NCBI GenBank assembly: GCA_005776945.1
Contig: SXOB01000053.1
Coordinates: 1-64,000, forward strand
Direction of reading: 5' to 3'
Length of the DNA stretch: 64,000 bases
Source: Pseudomonadota bacterium
Lineage (GTDB): Bacteria > Myxococcota_A > UBA796 > GCA-2862545
The translations under genes were made by a program, and so were the position numbers. Each line of letters opens with the position of its first letter. Position 1 is the stretch's first letter. A model generated the notes under the pieces. It had not been told where the DNA came from. It saw nothing but the letters and a program-made list of their open reading frames with translations, and did no database searches. Of this stretch, positions 14,006-38,537 are shown one piece after another.

Positions 14006-14106
14006 TGGCGGCAGGTCATGGGAATCGAACCCACCGGACGCCACCCTTCGGTGTGTCCCGACCGGTTTTGAAGACCGGGGCCGGCACCAGCGCGGCACGA
14101 CCCGCC
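14006..14106 (-). tRNA. selC: tRNA-Sec (anticodon TCA)
   Basis: A 101-nt selenocysteine tRNA including an encoded CCA (14006-14008) and discriminator G (14009). The acceptor stem has the Sec-specific eight pairs (GGCGGGTC with GACCTGCC, one G-U). The anticodon arm is CCGGT-CTTCAAA-ACCGG, anticodon TCA at 14071-14069. A long variable arm pairs GGGACACACC with GGTGGCGTCC, and the T arm is GTGGG-TTCGATT-CCCAT. It reads UGA as selenocysteine and implies that selA, selB and selD are elsewhere in the genome. It is the only tRNA in the window. Confidence 0.96.
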
Positions 14107-16968: not shown

Positions 16969-18548
16969 TGTTGCTCGCGCTCGCGTGCACGCCCGCGACC
17001 GATTCCGGGACGACTGGGGTAGGTCACGACTTCCTGACGCCGCCGACGCTCGTCGAGGCCGATCCACGCGCCCCGTTGACTGGGCTGTTGCGCGCTGAAT
17101 TGACAGCGCCCGGGCAGCTTGTGGTCACGCTCCGAGAAGTTGGTCAACCCGAAATCGAAATCGCCTTCGCTGCGGTCGCCGCGTTTCACGAGGTGCCGAT
17201 CGCGCTGCTCCGCGCAGATCGCAGCACGGAGATCGAGGTGGTCCCCCACTTCGAGGACGGCACTGTCGGGAAGCCGGCCGTCCTCAGCCACACCACGCCG
17301 CCCCTCCCCGGGGAGGCCCCGGACGTGGCCATCTCGCTCCACGTGACGGAGGCGAGGTCCGACGGCTTCACACTGATCGGCGCCGGACGCGCAGGGACCT
17401 TTCCCGGCGCCGAGATGTTGCTGCTGATCGACGCCTTTGGCGAAATCGTCTGGATGCGGACCTTCGACGAAGACGTGATGGACGCCGTGCCAACCGGGGA
17501 TGGCGAGTTCTTCGGACTACGTACGGGAACGGTCGCGCGCTGGGACCTCGCCGGTCGCGAAGTGGCCGCGTGGACGTCGGCCGACCGGGGCAGCCTCGGC
17601 ACCGCCGTAGTCGCCGATCAAGACCTCCACGACAGCGTTGCCCTGCTCGACGATGGCACGGCCGTCGCGCTGAGCACGAAGCACGTCGACGTCCCGTCGT
17701 TGCCCACCTCCTACGATGACCCCGGCATCCGCGCCGGCGGCATCGTCGCCGACGACATCCTCGTCGCCTTCGACATGTCTGGCGTCACCGTCGGCGAGTG
17801 GTCCGTCCTCGATGCACTGACACCGTACCGAATCGGCTACGACAGCCTGTTTGTCCGGGACGACGGGACCTACGACTGGGGTCGTGCCAACGCCGTCGAC
17901 GTACACGACGCCGACGGGGGCTGGCTTGTCAGCGTCCGCCACCAAGATGCGGTCGTCGAAATCGACCCCGTCACGCGGGCCGCAAATTGGATTCTCGCAC
18001 CGCCCGAAAATTGGCCAGACGACCTCGATGCCCTGCGCCTTCAGCCCCTCGACCCATCCTTCGAGTGGCCCTACCACCCTCATGGCGCACGATGGGCAGA
18101 CAGCGGACAACTCCTGGTTTTCGACAACGGAAATCGGCGGGCAAGCCCTTGGACGGGTGAAGCGTCGGTCCCCGACGAGGACAACGCGAGCCGCGTCCTC
18201 GTGTTGGACGTCAACGAAGCGGCTGGCACCTTCAGCGTAGTCACAAGCTGGGACGCCCCTCCCCAAGGGAGTCTGTTCAGCCAGCGCGGCGGCAGCGTAG
18301 AACTGCTTGCGGACGGCCACCATGTCAGCACGTGGGGCAGCGTGTCTTGGCTCGGCGGCATTTCAAGCGTTGACGCCGGCTACGGCAAGGACGCCGTCAT
18401 CGTCAATGAAGTGGACGAAAACGGGACCGTCGTGTGGCAGATGGTCCTTTTCGAACCGGCAGAAGAATTCGTCGCGGGCTGGTCCGCGAATCGCTCGGTG
18501 CGCGTCGTCAATCCCTACGGCTCCCTCGCAACGCTCACCGTCCGCTGA
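16965..18548 (+). CDS. Arylsulfate sulfotransferase-like lipoprotein, copy 1 (active-site His replaced)
   Basis: A 527-aa predicted lipoprotein; ATG in the upstream stop; ultra-short signal MMLLALAC (Cys8). The propeller matches PF05935 arylsulfotransferases (PAPS-independent AssT): VSVRHQDAVVEIDPVTR corresponds to the Arg-containing strand and WPYHPHGARW to the strand bearing the sulfo-accepting His. The motif that reads HAN in E. coli AssT is RAN here (YDWGRANAVDV), so one catalytic His appears lost. LLVFDNGNRRASPW also matches. Probably located in the periplasm or outer membrane. It may have altered or no sulfotransfer activity. The paralogue at 23981 keeps HAN. Confidence 0.8.
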   Translation: MMLLALACTPATDSGTTGVGHDFLTPPTLVEADPRAPLTGLLRAELTAPGQLVVTLREVGQPEIEIAFAAVAAFHEVPIALLRADRSTEIEVVPHFEDGTVGKPAVLSHTTPPLPGEAPDVAISLHVTEARSDGFTLIGAGRAGTFPGAEMLLLIDAFGEIVWMRTFDEDVMDAVPTGDGEFFGLRTGTVARWDLAGREVAAWTSADRGSLGTAVVADQDLHDSVALLDDGTAVALSTKHVDVPSLPTSYDDPGIRAGGIVADDILVAFDMSGVTVGEWSVLDALTPYRIGYDSLFVRDDGTYDWGRANAVDVHDADGGWLVSVRHQDAVVEIDPVTRAANWILAPPENWPDDLDALRLQPLDPSFEWPYHPHGARWADSGQLLVFDNGNRRASPWTGEASVPDEDNASRVLVLDVNEAAGTFSVVTSWDAPPQGSLFSQRGGSVELLADGHHVSTWGSVSWLGGISSVDAGYGKDAVIVNEVDENGTVVWQMVLFEPAEEFVAGWSANRSVRVVNPYGSLATLTVR

Positions 18549-23980: not shown

Positions 23981-25549
23981 ATGACCCGCTTGTTCGCATT
24001 GGCGTGTGCCAATGCACCCACGGCCGAGTCCGATCCGACGGCCGCCCCGGCACCCGTACTCGTCCCTCCCCCCGAGGGCGCGCCGTTGTCGTGGCGAATC
24101 TACGCGAACTCCGCGGTCCCGACGGCGGCCACCCTCGAGATCGTCAACGAGGACGGCCACCGCGTCGTTCAGTTCTTGGCCCAGACGACCGCCCACGCCC
24201 TACCGCTTCTCGGCCTGCCCCCCGACAGCGTCGCGACCGTCCGCCTCACCTTGGCGGACGACGCCGACGCCGTGCTGCTGCGCCACGAGTGGTCGGTGCA
24301 ATCGCCCCCCCTGGAGGGCTGGTGGCCCGAGGTCCAGCTCGACATCGCGGAGCCCGACCGAATGGAGCCGGGTTGGACACTCGTGCCCCTGGCCTCTGAC
24401 TCCCTCGACGGTTGGATCGCCGCCCTCGGTTCCGACGGTCGACCCCGTTGGCTCATCGGCCCGACGCCAACGCACACCGCGCTTTCGTGGCGACCCGATC
24501 GAGCCACCGTATTCGGGGTCCGATTCACCGCCGGAACGACCGTCGAGATGGACCGCTTCGGCGCCGAGCTGATGAGTTGGGGCGGCGCGCAATCGGGCCC
24601 CGTCCAGGCCTTGGACGACGTAAGCCACCTCCATCACGAGGTGTTGCCGCTGCCCGAAGGTGGCTTTGCCACCCTCGACATGCTCCCCACGATCGCCGCC
24701 GAGTACGCGGGGTCCTACGACGACAAGAGCATCCGCCAGACCGACGTCCTCGTGAGTCGCCAGCAGATCGTCGAGGTCGACGGCGCTGGCGCCGTGGTTC
24801 GCACCCTGCCTTTCGAGCCGCTGCTCGATCCCATCCGCGTAGGGTACGGCAGCCTGGAGATGCGGACCCACGGGCTCGACTGGATTCACGCCAACGCCAT
24901 CGCGCTCGACGAAGCCGCCGATCAGTACGTCGTGAGCAGCCGCAACCAAGATGCGCTCTTCGCCATCGACCGCGCCAGCGGCGAGCTCGCCTGGATCGTC
25001 GCACCGCAGGTCAACTGGCTGGGCCCCGCCAGGGACCATGTGCTCACCCCCACGGGCTCAAATTGGCTGCAGCCCTCCCACCAACACGCGCCCCACCTCA
25101 CCCCCGATGGCACGTGGCTCGTGGTCGACAACGGCAATGTCCGGGCGAGCCCTTTTACCAGCGAAATCCTCGACCCCGACCCCCACACTGAGATCATCGA
25201 GCTGGCCATCGACCCGGAAGCGGGGACCGTTGAGCGCCTGAACACCTGGGAACCCGCCGACGGACCCATCTTCTCTAGCGCCATGGGGAGCGTGGTCCAC
25301 CTCCCGACGACGGGCGGCAGGCTCATCGACTACGGCTTCGTCGAACGACTCGACGGCGTGGACAACCTCGACCTCGGCCGGGCCCCCGTCAGCATCCGCC
25401 TTGTCGAACAGGACGCCGACGGCGAGGTCGTCTGGGACCTCTCCATCTTCGTTCCGGCGACCGACCCCGCGGGCGACGGCACCTTCGCCTACCGCGCCCA
25501 CCGCATCCCGAGCCTGTACGGTCCCGAGGCGACGGAGACCTGGCTCTGA
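23981..25549 (+). CDS. Arylsulfate sulfotransferase-like lipoprotein, copy 2
   Basis: A 522-aa predicted lipoprotein: signal MTRLFALAC (Cys9). It matches PF05935 AssT: LDWIHANAIALDEAADQYVV with the HAN His, VVSSRNQDALFAIDRASGELAW with the conserved Arg, and LQPSHQHAPHLTPDGTWLVVDNGN with the candidate sulfo-His. So the catalytic set known from E. coli AssT (His, Arg, His) appears complete, unlike copy 1. AssT enzymes move sulfate between phenolic compounds in the periplasm. It stands alone, between the divergent ffh and the convergent TetR gene, 13 bases from the latter's stop. Confidence 0.82.
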   Translation: MTRLFALACANAPTAESDPTAAPAPVLVPPPEGAPLSWRIYANSAVPTAATLEIVNEDGHRVVQFLAQTTAHALPLLGLPPDSVATVRLTLADDADAVLLRHEWSVQSPPLEGWWPEVQLDIAEPDRMEPGWTLVPLASDSLDGWIAALGSDGRPRWLIGPTPTHTALSWRPDRATVFGVRFTAGTTVEMDRFGAELMSWGGAQSGPVQALDDVSHLHHEVLPLPEGGFATLDMLPTIAAEYAGSYDDKSIRQTDVLVSRQQIVEVDGAGAVVRTLPFEPLLDPIRVGYGSLEMRTHGLDWIHANAIALDEAADQYVVSSRNQDALFAIDRASGELAWIVAPQVNWLGPARDHVLTPTGSNWLQPSHQHAPHLTPDGTWLVVDNGNVRASPFTSEILDPDPHTEIIELAIDPEAGTVERLNTWEPADGPIFSSAMGSVVHLPTTGGRLIDYGFVERLDGVDNLDLGRAPVSIRLVEQDADGEVVWDLSIFVPATDPAGDGTFAYRAHRIPSLYGPEATETWL

Positions 25550-25562
25550 GTGTGAGCCGGAC

Positions 25563-26186
25563 TCACGCGCCCCGCGCGGAGAGCCCTTCCCACGCATAGC
25601 CGAGGACCGCATCGGCCACGCGGTCCACGTCCAAGGGCTCGGCCGCGTCGACGATGCGCGCGACGATCACGCCCCGCAGGGTGCCAACGATGCAGTCAGC
25701 GACGACGTCGCGGTCGATCGGCCGCAGAATCCCGTCAGCCACACCAAGCGCGAGCGCGTGCCGAACCCACGCGGCGAGGTCGCGGTGAAAATGGGCCATA
25801 CGGGCATCGGCGGCGCCGTCCGACGCCAGCGCCTCACGGAAGAGGACCCGTGTGAGCGCCCGGTCGCCGTCCATGACCGCGAGGAGGCCCGACACGATGG
25901 CGCGGAGTTGGACCGAGACCGGGGCGGCTCCAGGGCGCCGGTCGACCGGCACGAGCGCGGCCCCGAGCCGAGCAAGCAACACGTCGAGTAGCGCGTGGAA
26001 GACGGCTTCCTTCGACGGAAAGTACTGGTAGAAGGTTCCGCGCGCGACGCCGCAGGCCGCCACAAGCTCGCTGACGCCGGTCCCGTGGTAGCCTCGCGCG
26101 GCAAACACGACACGAGCCGCGTCCAGGATCTGTTCGCGTCGCGCTTCTCTGGCCGCCGCCGCGCGTTCCACCCGGCCGTCGCTCAC
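25563..26186 (-). CDS. TetR-family transcriptional regulator
   Basis: A 207-aa repressor-type regulator. The N-terminal TetR helix-turn-helix is clear: REQILDAARVVFAARGYHGTGVSEL, then CGVARGTFYQYFPSKEAVFHALL (residues 18-65). The C-terminal ligand-binding domain is helical and unassigned; many similar proteins sense acyl-CoAs. GTG start overlaps the stop of the PlsC-like gene (GTGA), so it is the last of ten coupled genes. The obvious candidate target is the inverted repeat at 35252-35267 before the first gene, which would make the operon self-regulated; that is inference. Confidence 0.9.
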   Translation of the reverse strand: MSDGRVERAAAAREARREQILDAARVVFAARGYHGTGVSELVAACGVARGTFYQYFPSKEAVFHALLDVLLARLGAALVPVDRRPGAAPVSVQLRAIVSGLLAVMDGDRALTRVLFREALASDGAADARMAHFHRDLAAWVRHALALGVADGILRPIDRDVVADCIVGTLRGVIVARIVDAAEPLDVDRVADAVLGYAWEGLSARGA

Positions 26187-26896
26187 GGGGCCTCCAGCCG
26201 CTGGACGATCCTCGCCCGCACGTCGTCGGCCAAGGCCTGCAGGCTAGCGTCCGAGACCCCCTCCGTCGGCACTGGCGCCAAGACGTACACCGTCACGTCC
26301 CCGGGATTGAGGTGCCACGAATTTGGCCGGTTGACGTCGAACATCCCTCTGACCGCCACCGGGACCACCGCCACGCCCGCATCGCGCGCGACGCGAAACA
26401 TCCCCTTGCGAAAGGGGCCGACGGCCCCGGTCCGCGTGCGGGTGCCTTCCGGAAAGGCCAGGATGCTGTTGCCTTTCGCGACTTCTGACTGCACTCGTTC
26501 CGCAAACTCCCGACCCCCACCCGGCCGGACCGGAATCGTACCGCGTGAGCGCATGAACCAGCCGTAGAACGGGATTCTGAAATGCGCTTCGAGCTCTACG
26601 CCCTGCTTGAAATGGGGCGTGGCGTCGTACATCGTCACATGGTCGAGCAAATTCACGTGGTTTTGTACGAAAAGGTAGGTCGCATTCGGGTCGACGGCGG
26701 GGTCGACCACCGCGCGCCAGCGGCTCCCCGTCAGCGCGACCTGACCGCGACAATAGACGCGGGACAATCCGTCGATCGCTCGCGGTCCGAGCGCCCAACC
26801 GAGTACGGTCATCAAGGCCATCATCGGCGCCATCCACAGCGCCCCGACGGTCCAGAGGACCACGGAGCGAATGGCGCGCCACAACCGCCGCATCAT
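26183..26896 (-). CDS. PlsC-like 1-acylglycerol-3-phosphate acyltransferase
   Basis: A 237-aa membrane-associated acyltransferase. The catalytic HX4D motif is NHVNLLDH (about residues 78-85), and the glycerol-phosphate-binding motif FPEGTRTRTGAVGPFRKG follows at about 148-165. An N-terminal hydrophobic stretch (VVLWTVGALWMAPMMALMTVLGWALG) anchors it. The family transfers acyl groups from acyl-ACP or acyl-CoA to lysophosphatidate-like acceptors; with ACP, ligase and lipid kinase in the same operon it probably acylates a dedicated lipid. ATGA overlap with the kinase gene. Confidence 0.9.
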   Translation of the reverse strand: MMRRLWRAIRSVVLWTVGALWMAPMMALMTVLGWALGPRAIDGLSRVYCRGQVALTGSRWRAVVDPAVDPNATYLFVQNHVNLLDHVTMYDATPHFKQGVELEAHFRIPFYGWFMRSRGTIPVRPGGGREFAERVQSEVAKGNSILAFPEGTRTRTGAVGPFRKGMFRVARDAGVAVVPVAVRGMFDVNRPNSWHLNPGDVTVYVLAPVPTEGVSDASLQALADDVRARIVQRLEAP

Positions 26897-27768
26897 GTCA
26901 GCACCGCCACGGCCAGTGGCACGACTTCGATGGCGCGCAACGTGAGCGGGAGGGCCTCGCCATCGATCATCGTTGGGACCGGGCCGTCGAAGCCAAACTC
27001 CACTCGCCGGGCCCGCGAGGTGGCCACCGTCGGCAAGTTCAGATGGGTTCCGCTGAAAATCTTGGGGAAAGCCATGAGGAAACTGAGGCGCCCCATCGGC
27101 GCGAGGGCGATGAGGTCCATTTCCCCGTCAGCTGCGTCGGCATTCGGCGCCATCTTCATCGTCCCGCCGGTGTATCGGCTGTTGCAGGCCGACCACATCA
27201 GCGGCGTCGATTCCGACCAGTTGCCCCCGTCGACGCGGATCTTCAGCGAGAAGGTGTGTAGTCGAGCCACTTCTACGGCCACAGCGGCGATGTATCCAAG
27301 CGCTCCGAGCGCCTTGAATGAGCGATTCGTCGTCGCGCCCGCATCGGCCGCAAAACCCAGGCCCACGAGGTTGAGGCTGTACCGGTTCCCTTCGTCCGCC
27401 TCCAACCGGAGCAGGTCAATTCGTTTGGGCGCGCGGCGTGTCAAGGCGCCGAGCGCGCCCTCCAACGTGTGCAGGCCGTAGTCGCGCCCAAACGAATTGC
27501 CAGTACCGACGGGCCAAACCGCCAACGCTGGCGCATTCGGCCTCACGAGTCCGTTGACCACTTCGTGTAGCGTCCCGTCGCCCCCGGCCGCGACCACCAC
27601 GTCGGTGTCGGCCTCCGCAGCCAGACGCGTCGCATCGCCGGGACCCCCTGTGTACGCGACGACCACCTCGTAGCCCACGCCGCGCAGCGCCTCCGCGGCA
27701 CCGTCCGCGCGCCGGGCCGCACGCCCGCCGCCCGCCGCCGGGTTGACGATGAGATGGGCCCGCTTCAC
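26893..27768 (-). CDS. Diacylglycerol kinase-like lipid kinase (DgkB/YegS family)
   Basis: A 291-aa protein starting at GTG 27768 (GTGA overlap), MKRAHLIVNPAAGGGRA. The nucleotide-binding motif VVAAGGDGTLHEVVNGL (about residues 58-74) and WPVGTGNSFGRDYGL (about 83-97) are diagnostic of DAGK catalytic domains (PF00781). The C-terminal beta domain includes TGGTMKMAPNADAADGEMDLI, as in YegS/DgkB. It phosphorylates a lipid hydroxyl using ATP. In this operon it could make the phosphorylated acceptor for the PlsC-like enzyme or phosphorylate the final lipid alcohol. Confidence 0.92.
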   Translation of the reverse strand: MKRAHLIVNPAAGGGRAARRADGAAEALRGVGYEVVVAYTGGPGDATRLAAEADTDVVVAAGGDGTLHEVVNGLVRPNAPALAVWPVGTGNSFGRDYGLHTLEGALGALTRRAPKRIDLLRLEADEGNRYSLNLVGLGFAADAGATTNRSFKALGALGYIAAVAVEVARLHTFSLKIRVDGGNWSESTPLMWSACNSRYTGGTMKMAPNADAADGEMDLIALAPMGRLSFLMAFPKIFSGTHLNLPTVATSRARRVEFGFDGPVPTMIDGEALPLTLRAIEVVPLAVAVLT

Positions 27769-29441
27769 AACGCCCTCACATCGGACATCGTGGCCCCACT
27801 CCGGAGGGCCTCCATCAGCTCGCCGCGGCGCAGCTTCATCGTCGTGGTCCGCGGGAACACGCGGCCCCACTCCAGCCAGCCGCCGACCCGACGATGCACA
27901 GGGAGCCCACGGTTTCGCTCCGCGAGGTCCACAAGGTCCACAGCGCGGTCGGCGAGCGGCCGGACGACGAGGACAAGGGCATCCGAGGCGAGGTTCCGCT
28001 CCCCAAACGTGGCGTTCATCGCCACGACTGCACATTCCTCGGCGGAAATTCCGTGAAAGGCGACCTCCACGTCTGATGGCGCCACATTTTTTCCGCCCGC
28101 GGTCACGATCAGGTCCTTGATGCGGCCGACGAGCACGAGGTGGCCCGACGCATCGAAGCGCCCAAGGTCGCCGGTGTGCAGGGCGCCGTCCCGAATCATC
28201 GCCGCCGTGGCCTCAGGGTCGTCCAAATAGCCCGACATGAGCGTCGGCCCGCGAACGACGACCTCGCCGACACCCCCCGAATCGGGTTCATGCAGGCTCA
28301 CCTCGACACCGCGCACCGGCTTGCCCACCGTCCGCGACCGAACCGGCGAAGCGTCGGCCAACGTCACGACCGTCGTCGCCTCCGTCAACCCGTAGCCGAT
28401 GAGGGTCGGAATCCCGAAACGCGCGAAAAACTCGACGTCGTCCGGAGGCGTCCAGGATCCTCCGCAAAACAGCACTTCAATCCGGCCGCCGAAGACGGCA
28501 TGAACGGGAGGGAACAGCCGTCGACCCAACGCCGGATTCGCCCGCTTGGGGCTCAGTGCGTCGTAGGTCGAAAGCAGGACATCGACCGCCCGCCGCTCGG
28601 TGGCGGAGCGCGCATCGAGGGCCTCCTCGACGCCCTTGCGGAGAGCAGCAAGCACCATCGGCACCAGCGCCATGTGGGTCGGCTGGTACCGGGCCATCGT
28701 TGCACGAAGCGTGTCCGGACGCAGCGCACGCTGGTGCACGACCGTCGCACCGCACACCCATGGACCGATGAAGCCGGCAAGGAAGTCGATCGCGTGGTGC
28801 GTCGGCAGAATCGAGAACCACACCTGGCCGACAGCCATGGGATGGCGTTCAAGCAGGGCCGTCAGCTGGCTCAAGTAGGCCCGGTGGGGCAAGACCGCCC
28901 CTTTGGGCGGTCCCCCCGTCCCCGAGCTGAACACGATGGTAGCGGGGTCTTCGGGCCGGCGGGGAACGGGCTCGAACCGGCCCTCCCCCCACGACTCGAA
29001 GGGCTCCGCTCCGGCCATGGGACCGGGCGCGCCGAGCACCCACGTCCGCGCCACGCCAGGGTCGCCGCGGAGGAGCAGCCCGTGATCGATGACGAGCAGG
29101 TCCACGCACGTCCGACCCAACAGATCCCGGTGGTCCGCCAACGACAACTTCGGGTCGATGGGGACGAGGACGGCACCCACCCAGAACGTCGCGACCGCCG
29201 TGAGCAACCAGGCCGACTGGTTGGAGGCGATGATGGCGACCCGGCCGCCAGGGCCCACGCCGGCCGCCGACATCCGCGCCGCGATGGCTTCGGCGTCGCG
29301 CTGGACGTCCCGAAAGGTCCGCCGAGCGACCTCCCGGCGCCGATCGGACTCGACCAGCGCCGTGGCGGGCGCAAACATCTCCATGGCCTCGCGCAGCAAG
29401 CTGCCGAGATGTTCGTGCCGCGGCACGAACACGGCGCTCAA
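27765..29441 (-). CDS. AMP-forming acyl-CoA/acyl-ACP synthetase
   Basis: A 558-aa adenylate-forming enzyme with TTG start in the ACP stop (TTGA). Motifs: TIVFSSGTGGPPKGAVLPHR (A3, about residues 168-187), PTLIGYGLTEATTVV (A5), HTGDLGRFDASGHLVLVGRIKDLIV (A7/A8) and a C-terminal Lys in TTTMKLRRGEL (A10). It activates a fatty acid and loads it on CoA or, given the ACP encoded immediately upstream, probably on that carrier. No signal peptide. Confidence 0.9.
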   Translation of the reverse strand: MSAVFVPRHEHLGSLLREAMEMFAPATALVESDRRREVARRTFRDVQRDAEAIAARMSAAGVGPGGRVAIIASNQSAWLLTAVATFWVGAVLVPIDPKLSLADHRDLLGRTCVDLLVIDHGLLLRGDPGVARTWVLGAPGPMAGAEPFESWGEGRFEPVPRRPEDPATIVFSSGTGGPPKGAVLPHRAYLSQLTALLERHPMAVGQVWFSILPTHHAIDFLAGFIGPWVCGATVVHQRALRPDTLRATMARYQPTHMALVPMVLAALRKGVEEALDARSATERRAVDVLLSTYDALSPKRANPALGRRLFPPVHAVFGGRIEVLFCGGSWTPPDDVEFFARFGIPTLIGYGLTEATTVVTLADASPVRSRTVGKPVRGVEVSLHEPDSGGVGEVVVRGPTLMSGYLDDPEATAAMIRDGALHTGDLGRFDASGHLVLVGRIKDLIVTAGGKNVAPSDVEVAFHGISAEECAVVAMNATFGERNLASDALVLVVRPLADRAVDLVDLAERNRGLPVHRRVGGWLEWGRVFPRTTTMKLRRGELMEALRSGATMSDVRAL

Positions 29442-29677
29442 CGTGACCGCCGGGCGACGAGGTCGGCGAGCCCGCGCAGCGTCGACACGCCTTGCAATTC
29501 GTAGTCTGGAATCTCGACGCGGAACGCCTCTTCGAGTCGCGAAAGCAGGTCGAGCGCGGCCAGGCTGTCGATGCCGAGACCTTCGTAGAGGTCCTCGTCG
29601 TCTTTCAGCGTTTCAGCGCGCGCACCGAAGCGAGCAACGGCCAGCGCTCGCAGGCGGGTCAGGGGGTCTTCGCTCAT
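29438..29677 (-). CDS. Acyl carrier protein
   Basis: A 79-aa carrier with the phosphopantetheine attachment Ser in GIDSLAALDLL (about residues 34-44), followed by the acidic recognition helix and FRVEIPDYEL. It is distinct from a housekeeping AcpP (which usually reads ADSLDTVELVM), so it is a pathway-specific carrier. ATG overlaps the crotonase stop and its own TGA overlaps the ligase TTG. Confidence 0.93.
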   Translation of the reverse strand: MSEDPLTRLRALAVARFGARAETLKDDEDLYEGLGIDSLAALDLLSRLEEAFRVEIPDYELQGVSTLRGLADLVARRSR

Positions 29678-30531
29678 GGCAGATACGGCCTCACATCTCG
29701 GGATTCAACGAACTTCGCAAGCGCGTTGAACACCGCTTCGCGGCCGACAAGCCGACGAAACAGGGAGCGCTCCTTCCGCAGCTCCGCGCTCGGAAGGGGT
29801 TTTGCGAAGCCCTTCGCCGCTGCGACGACTTCGGGGTCGAAGCGCGCGATCTGATCCGCGACGCGCCTGGCGGCGTCGACCGCTTCTCCCCTCGGAACGA
29901 CCTGGCTGACGAGGCCCAATTCGTAAGCGCGTTCGGCGCCAAGGCTTCGGCCCGTGAACAACAGGTCGCGGACCACGGCATTCCCGACGTCCCGGGACAG
30001 CCGCGGCAGGCCGCCGAAACCTGGCACGAGGCCCAACCGGAGCTCGGGAAAGGCGAAACGCGCGGACCGGTCGGCGATGGCGACGTCGCCAAGCAACATC
30101 AACTCGAGCCCCCCCCCAAAGACAGGGCCGTGGACGGCGACGACAACGGGCACAGGGCTGGTGTCGATCGCGTCGAAAGCGCGGTGTAGCCGCTCGATGA
30201 ACCGCCCAACGGCGCGCTGGACGACGGGTCGGAGCACCCGAGTCGCGACCGCGGCCCCCACCGTCCCCGTCGACCGCGCCACGCGCGCGACGACCGCAGA
30301 ACGACGTGCGGCCAAGTCGGCGTGCAAGGCCCGCAGGTCTGCGCCGGCGCAAAAGCCAGCTTCGAGCGACGAATGGAGGACCACGGCACGGGCGCCGTCC
30401 GCACCCGAGTGAAGGTGGCGCCCCAAGTCGGCCAACGCGTCGACCAGCTCGGGCCCAATTTCGTTGAGGGGGGCGCGGCCAAGGCTGACCTCGAGGCGAT
30501 CCCCGACACGCGTCGTCGCCAGGACGCTCAT
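29674..30531 (-). CDS. Enoyl-CoA hydratase/isomerase (crotonase) family protein
   Basis: A 285-aa crotonase. CAGADLRAL forms the first oxyanion hole, GPVFGGGLELMLLGDVAIA the second, and both glutamates usually needed for hydration are present (in GGLEL and FPELRLG), followed by PGFGGLPRLSRDVG. The central insertion (a stretch around VLRPVVQRAVGRFIERLHRA) is longer than in short hydratases. It could hydrate or isomerise an acyl-ACP/CoA intermediate. ATG 30531 was chosen because it overlaps the upstream stop (ATGA); the longer frame is shadow. Confidence 0.88.
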   Translation of the reverse strand: MSVLATTRVGDRLEVSLGRAPLNEIGPELVDALADLGRHLHSGADGARAVVLHSSLEAGFCAGADLRALHADLAARRSAVVARVARSTGTVGAAVATRVLRPVVQRAVGRFIERLHRAFDAIDTSPVPVVVAVHGPVFGGGLELMLLGDVAIADRSARFAFPELRLGLVPGFGGLPRLSRDVGNAVVRDLLFTGRSLGAERAYELGLVSQVVPRGEAVDAARRVADQIARFDPEVVAAAKGFAKPLPSAELRKERSLFRRLVGREAVFNALAKFVESRDVRPYLP

Positions 30532-31982
30532 CGCCCCTCCACGAGCGCCGTGAGGGACGGGTGAAGCGGCGGCAGGTAGGCCCAAGGGTCGTCGCCCAAC
30601 CCGGGTCGCATCGGTATGCCCGGCAGCTGCTCGCGGAGGGTCGCCGCGACGTCGCGCCCCATCTCGCCCATTCGACGCAGGTGGCCAGCGACAGATTTCG
30701 CCGTCCCCGCCCGGATGGCCTCCCGCTGCAAGTGCAAGCGCGTGAGCACGTCCAGCACGCGGTCGCCAAGGGCGTCGTCCGAAACCCCAAGGCACAATTC
30801 CGGCGTCCCGCGGTCGTCGTAGAGGTTGCGGAGCCGCTCGTCCATCGTCACGCCCGCCGATGGCACGAGGCCGCCCATCGAGCAGACGACGGCGTGGTAC
30901 CGCGACGACAACAACATCGACGCGCTGCGCAGCACCGACAACATCTCCGGCCAGCGATGGTCGTCGGACACGAAGACGGGGGCGCCTCCAAGCGCGTGAG
31001 CTACCGACTCACACGCGCGCCGGTCGAGGCGCTCCATCCCCATGACCACGACGAAGTGGGGCTGACGCGAACAGAATGCCCGCACCCCTTGTACGAGGCC
31101 CGCTTCGTAGGTCGTCTGCTGGCGCGCGGGCTCGTCTCCCCCGCGATGAAAGTAGATGCTGGCGTAGTGATCTTCGGCGTCCAACCCCGTCAGCCGATGG
31201 GCGACGGCGCGCCCGATTTCGGCCTTCACGGGCCACCCAAACGGGCGGATGGGCGCGACGATCAACACGGGCTGACGGCCGTCCCACCCCGCTTGTCGCA
31301 ACAAGGCCTCGCCGATGGCCGGGTCGGGCGGCGATACCGTCCATGCCGTATCCGTGCCCGGACGGGTCTGGTTGAGGCCCAGCTCCGCGAGGACCTGCCG
31401 GGAGGCCTCGTTGCGGCACAAGATGGTGGCGCCGCTACACGTGCGCCGCACGAGGCGCTGCAGCGAGGGGTCCATCGCCCCCGCTTCGCCGCCCCAACCG
31501 ATCGCCGGCTTGTTTTCCGCGACGGCACAACCAAGGGCACCCGCCATCAGGATCGACAGCGCATTCGCGAATTTCGACTTGAACATCGACCCTTCACACG
31601 CGATGACCGCGTGTTGTTCGTGGACCACGTCGAAGACGAATTTAGGAAAGATCTGGGGCAGGTGCAGTTGGCGTACGCCCGGGAAGTAGCCGGCCGACAA
31701 CGCAGGATCGATAGTGAGAATCGAGAAGGCCCCACCGCCGTCGCCGAGAATCCAACGGAGCTGCCGAATCATCTCCTCGACGCGGATGTCGGCGCCCGTG
31801 TTGCGGGTCCCGGCGTAGCCAGCGAACAACACCTCGAGCGGTTCCCCTTTTCGCCACCGACGGCCGGGGTCCACGGGGTACCGAGCCGCCGCCAACTCCA
31901 CGAGGCCACCCATCGCGGCGGCCAATGCCGCATCGGCGTCGACGTCCCCCAACCGTTCCTTGAGGCGTGTGAGCCAACTCAC
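30528..31982 (-). CDS. Polysaccharide pyruvyl transferase-like protein
   Basis: A 484-aa protein starting at GTG 31982. EVLFAGYAGTRNTGADIRVEEMI is the glycine-rich N-terminal motif of PF04230, and GGLVPSAGVTMDERL with SSRYHAVVCSMG toward the C terminus matches the family's GT-B-like second half. Known members add pyruvate ketals to sugars in envelope polymers (for example CsaB). Its presence among acyl-lipid genes suggests that the product is a glycolipid or that this member has another activated-acyl or sugar substrate. A ~75-residue C-terminal extension follows the core. Confidence 0.8.
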   Translation of the reverse strand: MSWLTRLKERLGDVDADAALAAAMGGLVELAAARYPVDPGRRWRKGEPLEVLFAGYAGTRNTGADIRVEEMIRQLRWILGDGGGAFSILTIDPALSAGYFPGVRQLHLPQIFPKFVFDVVHEQHAVIACEGSMFKSKFANALSILMAGALGCAVAENKPAIGWGGEAGAMDPSLQRLVRRTCSGATILCRNEASRQVLAELGLNQTRPGTDTAWTVSPPDPAIGEALLRQAGWDGRQPVLIVAPIRPFGWPVKAEIGRAVAHRLTGLDAEDHYASIYFHRGGDEPARQQTTYEAGLVQGVRAFCSRQPHFVVVMGMERLDRRACESVAHALGGAPVFVSDDHRWPEMLSVLRSASMLLSSRYHAVVCSMGGLVPSAGVTMDERLRNLYDDRGTPELCLGVSDDALGDRVLDVLTRLHLQREAIRAGTAKSVAGHLRRMGEMGRDVAATLREQLPGIPMRPGLGDDPWAYLPPLHPSLTALVEGR

Positions 31983-33091
31983 ATCGGCTCCCAGCTCTTG
32001 TGGGGGTAGCGAAAGCGGTTGCGGACGGCCCACGCCATCAGGGACGCCGCGCGCGCTTCGAATCGCGGCGGCGGGCGGCCAACGACGGCGGTTGCGCGGT
32101 CGTTCGCGAAGACGGTGTCGTAGGTGATGTAGGGCCAGAAGACGTCCATGAGGACGGCCGCGTCGCGCATCCGCCAACCGCGCGGCAGCGCCAACCCCGC
32201 ACGGATCGCCGTGGCGAAGGTCGGCGCCAACCAAGGCAAGAACGTCAGCCGCTGACCCGCTTCGGCGAGAGCCGCAGCGATGGAGGCACCCGTCGGACTG
32301 TGGACGCCAGAGGCGAGGTGGAATCGGCGATGCTCGAGTTTCGGCGCGCCATGGATCGCGACGATGGCTTCGCCCACCCAGTCGGCGGCGACGATGTCGA
32401 GCCGCGTCTCCGCCTTCAACGGCACAAATCGCGCCGACGCCAGGCCGCAGAAGGCGCGCACCATGTCGAATTGCGTCGTTTCCGGCCGGCGCGAATCGCC
32501 CAACACGATGCTTGGGCGTAGAAACACGGGGTCACACCCGGCCAACAACGTTTCAGCCAGGTGCTCCGCAAACTTCTTGGTACGCCCGTACGGGTCGTAG
32601 TCGGACCGGTCCCAGTCGATGGCCGTGTCTTCCTGGACGACCTCACAGGAGCGCTCGCCCGCCACGGCCACTGTGCTGACATGGGTGTAGCGTCGGAGTC
32701 GGCCTTTCTCGGCCAACGTACGCGCCAACTCAACGACCGTGAGCGTCCCGCGCAAATTCGTGTTCAGGCACGCTTTTTCGGACCGGCGATTCAGGCTCGC
32801 TGCGATGTGCAGAACGCTCGTCGCCGTGGCCATGACGCGGTCGCGCGTGGCGTCGTCCAAGCCGAGACCGGGGCCGTGGAGGTCGCCGAGCGCGATGTCG
32901 ATCCGCGGCAACCAGGAGGCAAAGGTCGCCCGGTCGACGTGGAGTTGAACTCCATGCCATAGACGGCCCACCGCCGTCTCCCGGTCGGGCGCCCGCACGA
33001 GCGCGATCACGTCCTCGGGGCGCGTCCGCATCCACTCGGTGAGCGCATAGCCGCCGAGGTAGCCGGTGCCGCCCGTGAGGAGGACGCTCAC
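31979..33091 (-). CDS. NAD(P)-binding thioester-reductase-like SDR (Male sterility type)
   Basis: A 370-aa extended SDR. GTG start 33091 gives VSVLLTGGTGYLGGYALTEW, the nucleotide-binding TGxxGxxG. The catalytic YxxxK is DPYGRTKKFAEHL (about residue 175), preceded by THVSTVAVAG with the Ser. The NAD_binding_4 pattern is that of carboxylic acid/thioester reductases that release acyl chains from CoA or ACP as aldehydes. It lies directly after a fatty acyl reductase, so the two may act in sequence or on different chains. GTGA overlaps at both ends. Confidence 0.85.
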   Translation of the reverse strand: MSVLLTGGTGYLGGYALTEWMRTRPEDVIALVRAPDRETAVGRLWHGVQLHVDRATFASWLPRIDIALGDLHGPGLGLDDATRDRVMATATSVLHIAASLNRRSEKACLNTNLRGTLTVVELARTLAEKGRLRRYTHVSTVAVAGERSCEVVQEDTAIDWDRSDYDPYGRTKKFAEHLAETLLAGCDPVFLRPSIVLGDSRRPETTQFDMVRAFCGLASARFVPLKAETRLDIVAADWVGEAIVAIHGAPKLEHRRFHLASGVHSPTGASIAAALAEAGQRLTFLPWLAPTFATAIRAGLALPRGWRMRDAAVLMDVFWPYITYDTVFANDRATAVVGRPPPRFEARAASLMAWAVRNRFRYPHKSWEPM

Positions 33092-34584
33092 TTGGCCACC
33101 GCGGACGCGGGCGCGCCAGCCGCAATCCGCAATGGGGGAGAGGTCGCCTCGTCCTTCTCGATCGTCCCGCCCCACACGAGCGGAATGCACCAACGACGCA
33201 ACCCGGGGTACTCGACGTCGATCCAATACCGGCGCCAATCGATGTCGCCCACCGTCCAGCGAAAGTCCGGATCAGGCTCCAATGCCGACAGCGCGCGTAC
33301 GGTGTCCGTGCGGAAGACCCAGCGATGGTCATGGATGAACGGCCGGTACAAGGCCAACATCCGGTCGACGCGCTCCGCCTGGTCCGCCGTCGTGAGCGCG
33401 GCCTCACGCCAGGACCCCTCGCCGAGCTGTTCGCTGGCCCAACGGGCGAACCGAGCAACGCGCGCCGCCGCAAAGGGGCCGGGCGCCTCGGCGGGGACGG
33501 CGACGGGGTCGAGGTGGGCGAAAAGGAGGCGATCCCATCGGTTGCCGTGGTCGCGGGCCCACCGCCGCATCGCGAGGCCCGTCAGCTCGATGGTCCGGCC
33601 CAGCGTGAGCGGCCTCACATCGCCCGACGCGAGGTGCAGAAGGGCCGGGGGTTGGGGCCCCAGCGCGGCCGCGCAGGCCAGCACCAGCCCGATGGCGACG
33701 TCGTCGACGGGGACGACGTCAAAGGGCGCGTCGGGGTCCGCAGGCAGGTCGCGGAAGGCCGTCGAAATGAGCCACGCCAGAGGCCCCGACGTGTTGAGGC
33801 CCTCGTTCCAGCCCGCGAACGGAACCGCCCGCGCACATTCGACGATGCTCGGGCGCACGATCGTCACGCGGCCGCGGGCACCAATCAGGTGCTCGGCCAG
33901 CCCCTTCGTATAGGTGTAGACATTCGCCCAGCCCAGCCGTTTCGCCCGCTCCGTGATCCGCGACACCCGGCCGTCCACATCCTGGGCGACGTCCGATTCG
34001 CGACACGCGGCGAAGGCGGCCCTGACCTCCTCGATGGGGTCGAAACGGAGGCCAAGGGGAGAAACCCCGACGTCGAGTTGCTCGGAGACCAGCCCGTCGG
34101 CCATTCCGACCGCAAAGGCCGTCGACACGTGGACGAGGTGGGCGCCGAGGCGCTGGGCCAACTGCGACGCGTGATGGGCGCCAAGGGTGTTCGCCGCCAA
34201 CGCCCGCAGGGGATCTGGGGCGAAGTCCGTGAGCCCTGCACAGTGGACGACGAGGTCGATTCCACTCCGAGCGGCGAGGTCGTCTTCCGTCCAGCCGAAG
34301 AGCGGCTTTTCGACATCGGACGCCACGGCGTCCAGCCGGCTAGCGAGCCACGGCCCGAGGTGATCGCCGTGTCTGGCGCGGAGGGGTCGGAAGGCAGGGC
34401 TCGTCGCCACCATGCGTTCCACGCGTATGAGTGGCCGCTCCACCCGGCCGCGCGTGCGGACCGCGAGCAGAATCTGCACGCCCGGCAGGCGTTCGAGGAG
34501 GAAGGCGAGGAACACCTTGCCAACGAAGCCCGTGGCCCCCGTCAGCAGGATGCGTTTGCCGCTCAGCGAATCGGCGACGCTCAC
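33088..34584 (-). CDS. Fatty acyl-CoA reductase-like protein
   Basis: A 498-aa protein starting at GTG 34584. KRILLTGATGFVGKVFLAFLLERLP is the typical opening of eukaryote-like fatty acyl-CoA reductases (FAR), with HVSTAFAVG and the catalytic YTYTKGLAEHLI at about residue 220. The C-terminal ~200 residues are where the FAR 'sterile' domain would be. Such enzymes reduce acyl-CoA/ACP to aldehyde or alcohol for waxes or ether lipids. It is a second, clearly different acyl reductase in the same operon. Confidence 0.85.
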   Translation of the reverse strand: MSVADSLSGKRILLTGATGFVGKVFLAFLLERLPGVQILLAVRTRGRVERPLIRVERMVATSPAFRPLRARHGDHLGPWLASRLDAVASDVEKPLFGWTEDDLAARSGIDLVVHCAGLTDFAPDPLRALAANTLGAHHASQLAQRLGAHLVHVSTAFAVGMADGLVSEQLDVGVSPLGLRFDPIEEVRAAFAACRESDVAQDVDGRVSRITERAKRLGWANVYTYTKGLAEHLIGARGRVTIVRPSIVECARAVPFAGWNEGLNTSGPLAWLISTAFRDLPADPDAPFDVVPVDDVAIGLVLACAAALGPQPPALLHLASGDVRPLTLGRTIELTGLAMRRWARDHGNRWDRLLFAHLDPVAVPAEAPGPFAAARVARFARWASEQLGEGSWREAALTTADQAERVDRMLALYRPFIHDHRWVFRTDTVRALSALEPDPDFRWTVGDIDWRRYWIDVEYPGLRRWCIPLVWGGTIEKDEATSPPLRIAAGAPASAVAK

Positions 34585-35231
34585 GCTCCCGCCTCCACGA
34601 TGGGCCACCCACAGTCGCGCGCAAGCGAACGCAAGCCGCGGTCGGGGTGGACGGCGACGCAGGCCTCGGCGGCGGACATCAAGGGGGCGTCGTCGATCTG
34701 GCTACCGTAGACGGTGCAGCCGTCCGCGGACCCCCCGGCATGGCCCCGGAGCCAAGCGCCGTCGAGCCCACCGACGACGGGGTCGATGAGGCGACCGCTG
34801 AGGCGACCGCGCACGACCTCGAATCGATTGGCGACGACCTCGTCGGGAGCGAGGCGCTCGACGATCGCGTCCAGCGCACCGTCGGGGTGCTCAGCCACCA
34901 AGACGCGCCTGAGGCCCGATGCCCGAGCGCGCTCCCAGAGATCCCAACCGGCCGGCCGGAGGCCCTCCAACAGGACGTCGCGGCCGTAGTCCATCCCGAG
35001 CTCCGCGAGCCGATCCTCCGAGGTGCCGCGAAGCGCCCCGAAGGTCAGCCGCCGCGCCGTGGCGCCGTCGGACAGGGGCCCACGCGGCCGAAACGCGAAG
35101 CCGGCGACGACGGTGGCGAGCCCCGTGACGCGGTCGCCAAGGTGCTGGCTACGCAGCGCCATCCAGTAGGCAAAACGGGCCGGTCCGGCGTCGACGAGGA
35201 CCCCTTCGAGCCGGAAGTAGGCGCGCGACAT
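34581..35231 (-). CDS. HAD-superfamily protein with degraded catalytic motif
   Basis: A 216-aa protein from ATG 35231, preceded by a GGGGGG run; ATG 35249 adds six residues but lacks a ribosome site. The fold resembles SerB/HAD-IB phosphatases, but the nucleophile motif DxDGT reads YFRLEGVLVDAG, so the catalytic Asp is Arg and the second Asp is Glu. The metal motif near the end, usually GDSxxD, is YGSQIDDAPLMSAA. It is therefore probably not a phosphatase; a binding or scaffolding role is possible. It is the first gene of the ten-gene lipid operon, directly behind the inverted repeat. Confidence 0.7.
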   Translation of the reverse strand: MSRAYFRLEGVLVDAGPARFAYWMALRSQHLGDRVTGLATVVAGFAFRPRGPLSDGATARRLTFGALRGTSEDRLAELGMDYGRDVLLEGLRPAGWDLWERARASGLRRVLVAEHPDGALDAIVERLAPDEVVANRFEVVRGRLSGRLIDPVVGGLDGAWLRGHAGGSADGCTVYGSQIDDAPLMSAAEACVAVHPDRGLRSLARDCGWPIVEAGA

Positions 35232-35251
35232 CCCGACCCCCCAGTCCATTG

Positions 35252-35267
35252 GACTGACACGTCAGTC
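35252..35267. promoter_or_regulatory. Perfect 16-bp inverted repeat, candidate TetR operator
   Basis: Arms GACTGAC and GTCAGTC separated by AC, located 21 bases before ATG 35231 of the lipid operon. On the minus strand it follows TAGACT, a possible -10 element, so a bound repressor would cover the transcription start. TetR-family operators are commonly 14-18 bp palindromes of this kind, and the operon's last gene is a TetR regulator. The pairing of the two is inferred. Confidence 0.6.
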
Positions 35268-35293
35268 TAGCGCGCGGGCGTCCTCCACGCCGC

Positions 35294-35998
35294 CTACCCA
35301 ACCGTAGGCGCCAAAATTTCCGCAAACAGCCGATCCAGCCCGCCGTCCCCCAACTCGCCAGGCCGGACGTCCGCAGCGACCCGCCCTCGGGCCAGCACCA
35401 CAATCCTGTCGGCCACGCGCTCGACCGTCTCGGCGACGTGGGTCGACAACACCACGCTCCGCCCCGCCTCCACGCGCGCCCTCAGGAGGCCTCGCACGCG
35501 CGCCGCGCTCGGCGGGTCCAGGCCGTTGAGCGCCTCGTCCAACACCAGCAAATCCGGATCGTGCAACAGCGCCGCCGCCAGCGCCGTCCGCCGACGCATC
35601 CCTTGGCTGTACTCGCGAATCGGACGGTCGGCGTCGCTGCCGAGATCGGCGACTTCCAACGCTGCACCCACGTCGCCTACGCCACGCACCTCGGCGACGA
35701 ATTCGAGGTGCTCGCGAGCGCTGAGAAACTCGTAGACGGCGGGCTCCTCGGGGACCGCCCCAAGGTGGCGACGCGCGCCGGCCGGGTCTGCGAAGACGTC
35801 GACGCCTGCAATCGAAACGCGTCCCGAATCGGGCGCCAACAGGCCCATCACGATGCGAAGCAGCGTCGATTTCCCGGCGCCGTTGTGCCCGATCAGGCCA
35901 ACAAATTCGCCAGGGGGGACGACAAGGTCGACGTTGTGCAGCGCCAGGACCTTGCCGTACATCATCTGTACGCCTCGAACATCGAGCGCTGGCGTCAT
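35294..35998 (-). CDS. ABC transporter ATP-binding protein
   Basis: A 234-aa ATPase of the export/DRA type. Walker A GHNGAGKST (about residues 37-45), signature YSQGMRRRTALAAALL, Walker B LLVLDEALNGLD and switch His in STHVAETVERVADR. ATG 35998 overlaps the stop of the permease gene. It forms an ABC-2-like pair with that permease. Substrate unknown; it is separated from the lipid operon by 45 bases that contain the inverted repeat, so it is probably controlled apart from it. Confidence 0.93.
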   Translation of the reverse strand: MTPALDVRGVQMMYGKVLALHNVDLVVPPGEFVGLIGHNGAGKSTLLRIVMGLLAPDSGRVSIAGVDVFADPAGARRHLGAVPEEPAVYEFLSAREHLEFVAEVRGVGDVGAALEVADLGSDADRPIREYSQGMRRRTALAAALLHDPDLLVLDEALNGLDPPSAARVRGLLRARVEAGRSVVLSTHVAETVERVADRIVVLARGRVAADVRPGELGDGGLDRLFAEILAPTVG

Positions 35999-37212
35999 GC
36001 GAAACCCCACGTGAGCAATGCAAGCGAAACGGCGGCCCAACCCATGTACGCGCCTCGCCAAGGCGCCCGTCGCGCGATCGCGGAAAAAAGCAGCCCCGCT
36101 GAGACCGCCGCCTCCCCCGCGAGGGCAGCCGGCGCCCCCAACAACACCCCCGGCAAGAGGACGGCAGGCTGGCACCACGCGCCGACCACGGCGACCCGCG
36201 CCGCCCATTCCACGCCGTCGCGCCGCGGGAGCGTCGCCCGTAGAAAGGGCAGCTCTGACGTTGTCATCGCCGTGGCCACGCCCGCGACCCAGAGCGCCCC
36301 GGCCATCGTCGCGACCCGACCCCACTCTGGCTGCGACACACCCACGGCCACTGCAAGCAATCCCAACACATAAGCGCCGGTGATCACCGAGCGCCGGGCG
36401 CGCCAGCCGTCCCGCAAATCACGTAAGGCATAGGGACGCCAGGACGGCGGAAGGAACCGAACGGCCCAATCGAGCGCCACCCGCCGAGTTTCCAGGGGAT
36501 CGGCGAGGCGCGCAAGGCGCGCATCGATTTCCCCCAACACGACGCTCGCTTCGTACCAGGCGCCAAGCGACAGCGGCCCGAGCGCCCAGGCCGCAACGCC
36601 CGCCAAAGCGATCGGCACGACAAGCGCCACGCTGGGCTGTCCCACCGCGGTGGACGCGCCGGCCAGCGCGAGGCCGCCGACGGCGAGGGCGACGCCCGGC
36701 GCGTAGAGGAAGGCGGCCTGCGCGCGCGGGTTTTGCCCGCGAACCAGGTCGAGCAACGCGGCGGCCCGCGGGTCGCGCGCAAGTCGAACGGCACCGAGGT
36801 GCACCGCGCTCGACACCGTGAGGCCCATCGCCGTCGCCGACGCGATGACCCCCAACGCCCGCACCCGTTCGCCTGGATCGGGCACGGCCGCCACTGCGAC
36901 CATCGCAGCCGCAATCAGGGCGAGCTGTTCGCGGGCAGCGGTGACCACGGCGGCCCGAACCACCGCGGCTTCGTCCAACGGCAACAACGCGAGCAGATTG
37001 CGGTCCTCCGCCCGCACGATCGCCCCGTAGGTGGCCAATCCGAGCCAACCCGCCAACGCCGTCGACACGCGAAAAGTCAGCGCCGACGCATCGCCGCCGC
37101 CCGTCGTCCCCACGACCCAAGCCATCCCGCACGCCGCAGCCACACCTCCGACCTCGGCCAACGTCGCCCGACTGCGCGCCCGACGAAGGGCGAGGCGCAG
37201 ATGGACGTTCAT
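35995..37212 (-). CDS. ABC transporter permease-like membrane protein
   Basis: A 405-aa, Ala/Val-rich integral membrane protein with about nine to eleven hydrophobic segments, starting MNVHLRLALRRARSRATLAEVG. The start was placed at ATG 37212, inside the miaB stop (ATGA); the longer frame adds eight residues. No sequence motif identifies it, but its fixed position next to a lone ATPase and its helix pattern fit ABC-2-type permeases. The substrate cannot be inferred. Confidence 0.75.
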   Translation of the reverse strand: MNVHLRLALRRARSRATLAEVGGVAAACGMAWVVGTTGGGDASALTFRVSTALAGWLGLATYGAIVRAEDRNLLALLPLDEAAVVRAAVVTAAREQLALIAAAMVAVAAVPDPGERVRALGVIASATAMGLTVSSAVHLGAVRLARDPRAAALLDLVRGQNPRAQAAFLYAPGVALAVGGLALAGASTAVGQPSVALVVPIALAGVAAWALGPLSLGAWYEASVVLGEIDARLARLADPLETRRVALDWAVRFLPPSWRPYALRDLRDGWRARRSVITGAYVLGLLAVAVGVSQPEWGRVATMAGALWVAGVATAMTTSELPFLRATLPRRDGVEWAARVAVVGAWCQPAVLLPGVLLGAPAALAGEAAVSAGLLFSAIARRAPWRGAYMGWAAVSLALLTWGFA

Positions 37213-38537
37213 GCTCCGACGAGCTCGCCGCGGCACGAATGCGTGAATCCCCTCGTGACGCGCACGTCGACGAAGGAGCCAGCCAGCTCTGGCGAACCTG
37301 GGAAGTTCACCATCGTAAAGGCCGACGTCCGTCCCGCCACGACGCCTTCGTCGTGCCGCGAGGCCCCCTCGACGAGCGCGCGGACCACCGACCCTTCGAG
37401 CGACCGATGAAATTGCAGGCTGCGTTCGCGTTGCGCGTCCTGCCAGCGGGTCAGCCGCGCCGACGCCACGGCCGGATCGACCTCGTCTTTGAGCTTCAAT
37501 GCTGGGGTTCCAGGACGCGGGTTGTACTTGAAGCTGAACGAGGTGACGAAACCAGCGTCGTCGAGCAACGACATCGTCTGCTCGAAATCCTCGTCCGTCT
37601 CGCCCGGGAAACCCACGATGATGTCGGTCGACAACACGAGATCCGGCCGCGCCTTGCGCAATTGTGCGACGACGTCCAAGAAGTGTTCGCGCGTGTAGTA
37701 GCGCTTCATACGTTTGAGCACGCGGTTACTGCCACTCTGGACTGGTAGATGCAGGTGGGACGCCAACTTTGGCAAGTCGGCGTAACACTGAACCACGTCG
37801 GGCCCCATGTCCCGCGGGTGGCTCGTCGTGTACCGCAAAACCTCGAGCCCAGGCACCTCGTGGACCGCGCGCAGCAATTCCGCAAATGTTTTTTCGCCCA
37901 CGCGCTTCAGGCCGTAGCTGTTGACGTTCTGGCCGAGCAGCGTCACGTCTTTGATGCCGCGCGCGACGAGGGCCGCGACCTCCGCGACGATCGCGTCGGC
38001 GGGTCGACTCGCCTCCGCGCCGCGCGTGGCTGGAACGATGCAGAACGTGCACTTGTTGTCGCAGCCCTTTTGAATCGTGACGAAGCCGGCGACGCCCGTC
38101 GTCGCAGGGTCGATTTCGTCGGAAAACGGGTACCCATCGAGGTCGAGGAACGTCGTGTCCATGACGCGCTCACCGCGCTGCGCACGCGCCACGAGCTCAT
38201 CGACCCGGTTGACGCCGTCGGGTCCGAACACGAGATCGACCTCCGGGTAGCGCTCGAGCAGCTCGGCCCCGCGCTCCTGGGCGACACACCCGGCCACGCC
38301 GATCGTCACCCGCTGGCCGAAGCGGCGCGCCATCCGGTAGGAACCGAGGACGGAGCGCATCTTGTCGACGGCCTTCTCGCGCACCGAACAGGTGTTGACG
38401 AGCACGAGATCGGCCAGACCGGGATCATCGGTCGTGACCCAGCCCTGCGCCGTCAGCCGTGCGCGCATCTTGCCTGTGTCCACCTCGTTCATCTGGCAGC
38501 CAAGCGTATGGAAGTAGACGCGCCCCGCCCCATCCAT
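37209..38537 (-). CDS. miaB: tRNA-2-methylthio-N6-dimethylallyladenosine synthase MiaB
   Basis: A 442-aa radical-SAM methylthiotransferase that modifies A37 of tRNAs reading UNN codons. The UPF0004 domain has its three Cys (TLGCQMN, VNTCSVRE, AGCVAQERG); the radical-SAM loop is KGCDNKCTFCIVPATRG (about residues 152-168); a C-terminal TRAM-like domain holds VEGASRHDEGVVAGRTS. The NTCSVRE/CIVPxxRG pattern favours MiaB over RimO or MtaB. First gene of a unit with the ABC exporter genes. Confidence 0.95.
   Translation of the reverse strand: MDGAGRVYFHTLGCQMNEVDTGKMRARLTAQGWVTTDDPGLADLVLVNTCSVREKAVDKMRSVLGSYRMARRFGQRVTIGVAGCVAQERGAELLERYPEVDLVFGPDGVNRVDELVARAQRGERVMDTTFLDLDGYPFSDEIDPATTGVAGFVTIQKGCDNKCTFCIVPATRGAEASRPADAIVAEVAALVARGIKDVTLLGQNVNSYGLKRVGEKTFAELLRAVHEVPGLEVLRYTTSHPRDMGPDVVQCYADLPKLASHLHLPVQSGSNRVLKRMKRYYTREHFLDVVAQLRKARPDLVLSTDIIVGFPGETDEDFEQTMSLLDDAGFVTSFSFKYNPRPGTPALKLKDEVDPAVASARLTRWQDAQRERSLQFHRSLEGSVVRALVEGASRHDEGVVAGRTSAFTMVNFPGSPELAGSFVDVRVTRGFTHSCRGELVGA

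Follow-up and report, generated by a model that had tools for sequence, protein, structure and literature searches.

A conserved gene cluster of Myxococcota and Acidobacteriota with homology to elb ether-lipid genes and a predicted TetR operator

The locus described here raises two questions: whether ten tightly packed genes with lipid-related annotations constitute a single pathway, and what kind of lipid such a pathway might produce. The genes lie within the 64,000 nucleotides of DNA that we analyzed (hereafter, the window) as ten minus-strand ORFs running from 35249 to 25563. In order of transcription, they are predicted to encode a HAD-fold protein (HAD, PF12710, 34581-35249) starting with the ATG at 35249, a fatty acyl reductase with an NAD_binding_4 and a weak Sterile domain (FAR, 33088-34584), a second NAD_binding_4 reductase of thioester-reductase-like type (TER, 31979-33091), a polysaccharide-pyruvyl-transferase-like GT-B protein (PPT, PF04230, 30528-31982), an enoyl-thioester hydratase/crotonase (ECH, ECH_1, 29674-30531), a stand-alone acyl carrier protein with a GIDSL phosphopantetheine site (ACP, PP-binding, 29438-29677), an AMP-forming fatty acyl ligase (ACL, AMP-binding, 27765-29441), a YegS/BmrU-type lipid kinase with a GGDGT motif (DGK, DAGK_cat/YegS_C, 26893-27768), a 1-acylglycerol-phosphate-acyltransferase-like protein with NHx4D and PEGT motifs (PlsC, PF01553, 26183-26896), and, as the last gene, a TetR-family regulator (TETR, TetR_N, 25563-26186). 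FAR, TER, PPT, DGK and TETR start with GTG and ACL with TTG, the FAR start being placed within the HAD stop. A preliminary description of this DNA had reported ten genes in one direction with nine NTGA junctions, and this proved exact, as every ORF lies where it had been placed and each junction was confirmed (GTGA at 34584, 33091, 31982, 27768 and 26186, ATGA at 30531, 29677 and 26896, and TTGA at 29441). Its family calls likewise agree with Pfam and are backed by NCBIfam, with several of the proteins matching broad superfamilies only. Among the finer details, the best solved relative of FAR is a fatty acyl-CoA reductase (7eoz), ECH retains both catalytic-Glu positions (E143 and E163), DGK scores over the TIGR00147 cut-off, and the models nearest to TETR are the FasR/FadR fatty-acid regulators, at scores below their cut-offs. 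A sigma-70 promoter scan found none.

Elsewhere in the window, an NTGA overlap is possible at 4 of 20 other same-strand neighbor junctions, compared with 9/9 in the cluster (Fisher p 7e-5), a value to be read with the caveat that operon membership alone makes such overlaps likelier. Among relatives, NTGA-capable junctions number 87/108 in the same taxonomic family, 86/162 in other families of the phylum, and 45/120 in the acidobacterial set, all counts being approximate because ORF starts were assigned automatically by script. Due to this gradient, the overlaps can be considered characteristic of the window's family, while the gene order is conserved far more widely.

The extent of that conservation is evident from the distribution of PPT, which is encoded in 16 of 21 genomes of the same family (including the window's own) and in 0/37 genomes from the other families of the order. 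When 284 genomes of the phylum were searched with a profile, 36 matches were obtained, including one that is weak and partial; among 84,980 species genomes scanned, there were 119 relatives, from which 80 loci were kept. The conserved order is HAD-FAR-TER-PPT-(ACL2)-ECH-ACP-ACL-DGK-PlsC-(TETR), where ACL2 is a second AMP ligase that is usual in the clusters of relatives and absent from the window. Splits and insertions aside, the 15 same-family loci fetched are collinear within the limits of their contigs, and among about 20 loci that represent other families of the phylum, most share the order. It also recurs in Nannocystis exedens DSM 71, N. pusilla (DSM 53165), Paraliomyxa, Sandaracinaceae and Acidobacteriota, and further loci carry the record titles Planctomycetota (a few) and Acidimicrobiia (one). 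Most carriers are MAGs, including two titled Klebsiella pneumoniae (L095 and L124), and we take these titles to be submitter errors. A search for the cluster in other genomes had been suggested as a check, with conservation of both the order and the overlaps expected of a single pathway; the same order was indeed recovered across several phyla, whereas the overlaps turned out to be mainly a family trait (87/108 junctions versus 45/120 in the acidobacterial set). The genes flanking the cluster show no conservation among relatives. For this reason, there is no support for counting the genes directly upstream of HAD, an ABC ATPase and a putative permease (35294-37236, minus strand), as part of the unit; the start of the putative permease can itself overlap the stop of a MiaB-like gene by 4 bases. 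Some loci have also acquired additional genes. In two same-genus relatives, an amidohydrolase lies between PPT and ECH (L027 8385-9794; L030 11111-13599), in L030 together with a D-serine-dehydratase-like gene, and in the sister genome G001 about 7 kb of other genes are inserted between ECH and ACP (L017 11457-18475).

A second conserved feature is a palindrome located upstream of HAD. In the window, it forms a predicted TetR operator, GACTGACGTGTCAGTC, at 35252-35267, separated by two bases from the HAD ATG at 35249. Across the clusters, the palindrome GACTGACRTGTCAGTC precedes HAD in 23/23 of those with TETR and in 0/14 of those without it. Although the association is formally very strong (Fisher 1.6e-10), this value overstates it, since it rests on only about 3 changes in a PPT tree built by a quick method, including 2 well-supported independent pairs. 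Visual inspection and a script revealed the palindrome; a repeat search of 35150-35400 did not report it. In the 3.88 Mb genome of the window, the exact site is present as a sole copy, and with two mismatches allowed there are eight more sites versus two for a control pattern. The palindrome also occurs in relatives without the cluster, and in 3/4 such loci read it lies near other TetR genes (L230 6737, L231 7145 and L233 6719, all from same-order genomes). It is thus not exclusive to the ten-gene cluster, suggesting that it belongs to a wider TetR regulon family. No paper containing the exact operator sequence was found in the open-access literature.

The preliminary description had named relatives with the genes split into independent loci as the observation that would speak against one pathway. 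Such splits exist. Two genomes of one genus, G010 and G019, carry HAD-FAR-TER, PPT, and ECH-to-TETR as three pieces on separate contigs or transcription units, with the palindrome before each; G011 and G020 have other genes between PPT and ECH, and there a second palindrome precedes ECH. Because a common palindrome is retained on all three of the split loci, this test was answered in favor of a single pathway. In G140 and G227, the halves are on different contigs and lack the palindrome, and HAD, FAR, PPT, ECH, ACP and ACL can all still be found. The parts of the cluster are therefore linked by their joint presence and, in clusters with TETR, also by the predicted operator. With the order conserved across phyla, the palindrome on the split pieces and flanks that are not conserved, the view of the block as one self-contained lipid pathway has held up well. 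A common predicted operator also provides a means of finding regulon members in genomes with a dispersed cluster.

Several of the ten proteins have counterparts in the Myxococcus xanthus elb operon, which comprises elbB (HAD), elbC (unknown), elbD (FAR-ligase-ACP-acyltransferase) and elbE (SDR) (PMC9131029). The elb system (VEPE/AEPE/TG-1, MIBiG BGC0000871) and the cluster have in common a HAD protein, a FAR, an AMP ligase, an ACP, a PlsC and perhaps an SDR-type protein. In elb-type loci, which we took from the phylum by architecture rather than by M. xanthus sequence, FAR, ligase, ACP and PlsC are fused in one ElbD-type chain of 1.5-1.65 kaa and a HAD gene adjoins. The FAR of the window is a full-length homolog of the N-terminal region of these proteins (31-35% identity, 229-283 bits), ACL matches their ligase domain (30-34% identity, 219-273 bits), and PlsC matches at 50-70 bits, whereas TER matches the ElbE-position genes weakly (23-29% identity, 37-56 bits). 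All four ElbD activities are accordingly present in the cluster, with FAR, ligase and PlsC as homologs and ACP as a stand-alone protein. In trees built by a quick method, the cluster FARs form one clade (99*) beside the ElbD FARs when rooted on TER. In vitro activity has been reported for the ligase and ACP domains of ElbD, which are homologs of cluster proteins. The earlier statement that the cluster was not a recognized one requires qualification for this reason: it is not described in the open-access literature searched, yet its HAD, FAR, ligase, ACP and PlsC match ElbB and the ElbD domains.

The differences are ones of kind. The activities joined in one ElbD polypeptide each have a gene of their own, both in the window and across the cluster loci examined; the ElbC-position gene encodes a Lar_N protein (PF09861), of which there is none among the window's ten; and the cluster adds PPT, a crotonase, a lipid kinase, usually ACL2 and often TETR, with no match to PPT, ECH or DGK in the elb loci examined. 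We had considered ElbC as a counterpart of PPT and rejected it, as the gene in that position is Lar_N. The HAD proteins differ as well. In the window, the Asp of motif I is replaced (YFRLEGVLV), and all 12 family members compared share R13 and E15. In an automatic scoring of 62 loci, split clusters have RxE at this motif, with one KxE (unscored printed loci read R-V-E or R-A-E by eye), whereas DxD is kept in 9/9 elb HADs. As the AF2 model of the window's protein keeps the HAD fold (3fvv, TM 0.79) while the catalytic DxD nucleophile motif is missing, the cluster HAD is probably not a working phosphatase and we annotate it as a predicted pseudophosphatase. Judged by its gene content, the cluster is not a member of elb: it has neither a fusion nor a Lar_N gene, and its HAD lacks the catalytic Asp. 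In elb, an intact HAD occurs with no lipid kinase in the block, whereas the split cluster pairs a seemingly dead HAD with a lipid kinase, which may suit a route in which the phosphate is retained or put back. The two systems also occupy largely different genomes. In 189 Myxococcota genomes, and among the matches listed, the split cluster is present in at least about 24 and ElbD-type genes in at least about 52, with both together in a single genome (G013) versus 6.6 expected (p 0.003), although these counts were read by hand and the statistic ignores relatedness. The elb cluster has been reported as not conserved in Nannocystis (PMC12766979), a genus that carries the split cluster.

The earlier suggestion that a ketal-type group may be added concerns PPT. 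The protein does clear the PF04230 gathering score (E 1.4e-7, 32.1 bits versus 25.3) and its SRYH and DER motifs are conserved, [ST]RYH being present in 16/16 members checked; we take the C-terminal RxH of CsaB/PF04230-type pyruvyl transferases to be catalytic. However, its match to the CsaB equivalog model (E 9e-14, 51.5 bits) is far under the cut-off of 213.1, and no relative among solved structures was found by sequence, even at E 1. The AF2 model (pLDDT 88) has a GT-B fold that is nearest to UDP-sugar glycosyltransferases and UDP-GlcNAc 2-epimerases; UDP-sugar enzymes lead the structure matches, with 9-14% identity and, normalized by target length, TM values reaching about 0.6, and the top 50 include no pyruvyl transferase. 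Hence, the PF04230 match stands, but the ketal reading is weak, as that match is distant, lacks a solved relative by sequence, and is accompanied by a generic GT-B fold.

Based upon homology, a working scheme can be drawn. ACL would activate a fatty acid and then load it onto the private ACP, where ECH would hydrate or dehydrate the bound chain. FAR, with TER as a second reductase, would convert the thioester to an aldehyde or alcohol, and the reduced chain would be joined, probably through an ether bond, to an acceptor of the glycerol type, with PPT as a candidate for the joining or for head-group addition. Phosphorylation by DGK and acylation by PlsC would then yield a phosphatidate-like product. 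HAD would be a non-catalytic partner, and TETR would repress the operon at the predicted operator before HAD until released by a lipid ligand. Of the ether, wax or glycolipid products considered in the preliminary description, an ether-type glycerolipid is the favored one. That the whole block is one TetR-controlled, unfused and extended relative of elb, making a fatty-aldehyde- or fatty-alcohol-derived (probably ether) glycerophospholipid independently of AGPS, is a reading that we hold with about even confidence. One consideration against this reading comes from elb itself, whose ether-forming step is not identified according to a review (PMC9131029).

The high conservation and cluster specificity of PPT, its GT-B fold near UDP-sugar enzymes and its lack of a counterpart in the elb loci examined would all suit a specialized glycolipid or signaling lipid, in which a fatty alcohol or aldehyde receives a sugar- or pyruvate-derived head group via PPT while DGK and PlsC complete a glycerol or polyol phosphate, with no ether bond. 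Nevertheless, we regard this as rather unlikely, given that the conserved block lacks sugar-nucleotide, export and polysaccharide genes and that its remaining genes match ether-lipid components. Another outcome would be wax-type neutral lipids for storage or the cell surface, with FAR and TER supplying a fatty alcohol and PlsC esterifying it. The resemblance of FAR to fatty acyl-CoA reductases and the acyltransferase in the same operon are compatible with this, but we detected no wax synthase or DGAT family in any of the ten proteins, and PlsC, which keeps lysophosphatidate-acyltransferase-type motifs and adjoins a lipid kinase, points to phosphorylated glycerolipids instead; waxes seem to us very improbable.

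It is also conceivable that the cluster is simply elb in unfused form, producing identical ether lipids by identical chemistry. Homologs of ElbB and the ElbD domains among its proteins (HAD, FAR, ligase, ACP and PlsC), and the largely complementary occurrence of the two systems, would be expected in this case. The absence of Lar_N and of any fusion, the lost HAD motif I, the extra PPT, ECH, DGK and ACL2, and the presence of both systems in G013 would not, and such equivalence appears quite improbable. The extended elb relative that we prefer could be taken further, to a second bacterial ether-lipid pathway in Myxococcota and Acidobacteriota that operates without AGPS or an ElbD fusion, with PPT forming the bond and the pseudophosphatase as a partner. 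We offer this as a speculative and doubtful extension, but if true, it could explain how lineages without any known ether enzyme come to have ether bonds.

Other known systems share parts of this scheme. The NRPS-like ether-lipid gene cluster families of sponge symbionts (PMC9426513) similarly bring together FAR, ligase, carrier and acyltransferase in Acidobacteriota and Poribacteria, though they are described as ElbD-type fusions, whereas the present loci are unfused and contain added genes. The AGPS-based route requires a fatty alcohol, which FAR could supply, but the cluster has no AGPS. An AGPS-like FAD oxidase with an HHHG motif does occur elsewhere in the window's genome (L239 715-2886, G000:C75), beside an Fe-S-type ORF, and its best solved relatives are alkyl-DHAP synthases. 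Since AGPS-like genes are found in 45/58 relatives irrespective of the cluster, and were not found in the carriers G002, G003, G012 and G015, we rejected AGPS as a cluster partner. A search for the CarF desaturase (PF10520) gave no match, nor did the control, which makes this result uninformative.

How alkyl ether bonds are formed in aerobic bacteria without AGPS is unsettled, elb included. Acidobacteriota include producers of brGDGTs, and the ether pathways of this phylum are disputed. Solibacter usitatus is reported to lack ElbD, and PlsAR has been proposed instead (PMC10087280). The cluster provides a defined and apparently regulated gene set in cultured strains (N. exedens DSM 71 and N. 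pusilla DSM 53165) as well as in Acidobacteriota, and as its activities reside on separate proteins, the steps are individually testable.

The window holds a few further features of note. Two arylsulfotransferase genes (ASST, PF05935) lie at 23981-25549 and 16965-18548, both on the plus strand; one is convergent with TETR, and ASST is not conserved beside the cluster in relatives. ARAGORN also calls a tRNA-SeC (anticodon tca) at 14006-14106 on the minus strand, which may be spurious, as the Pfam-checked neighboring ORFs show no selenocysteine-pathway genes.
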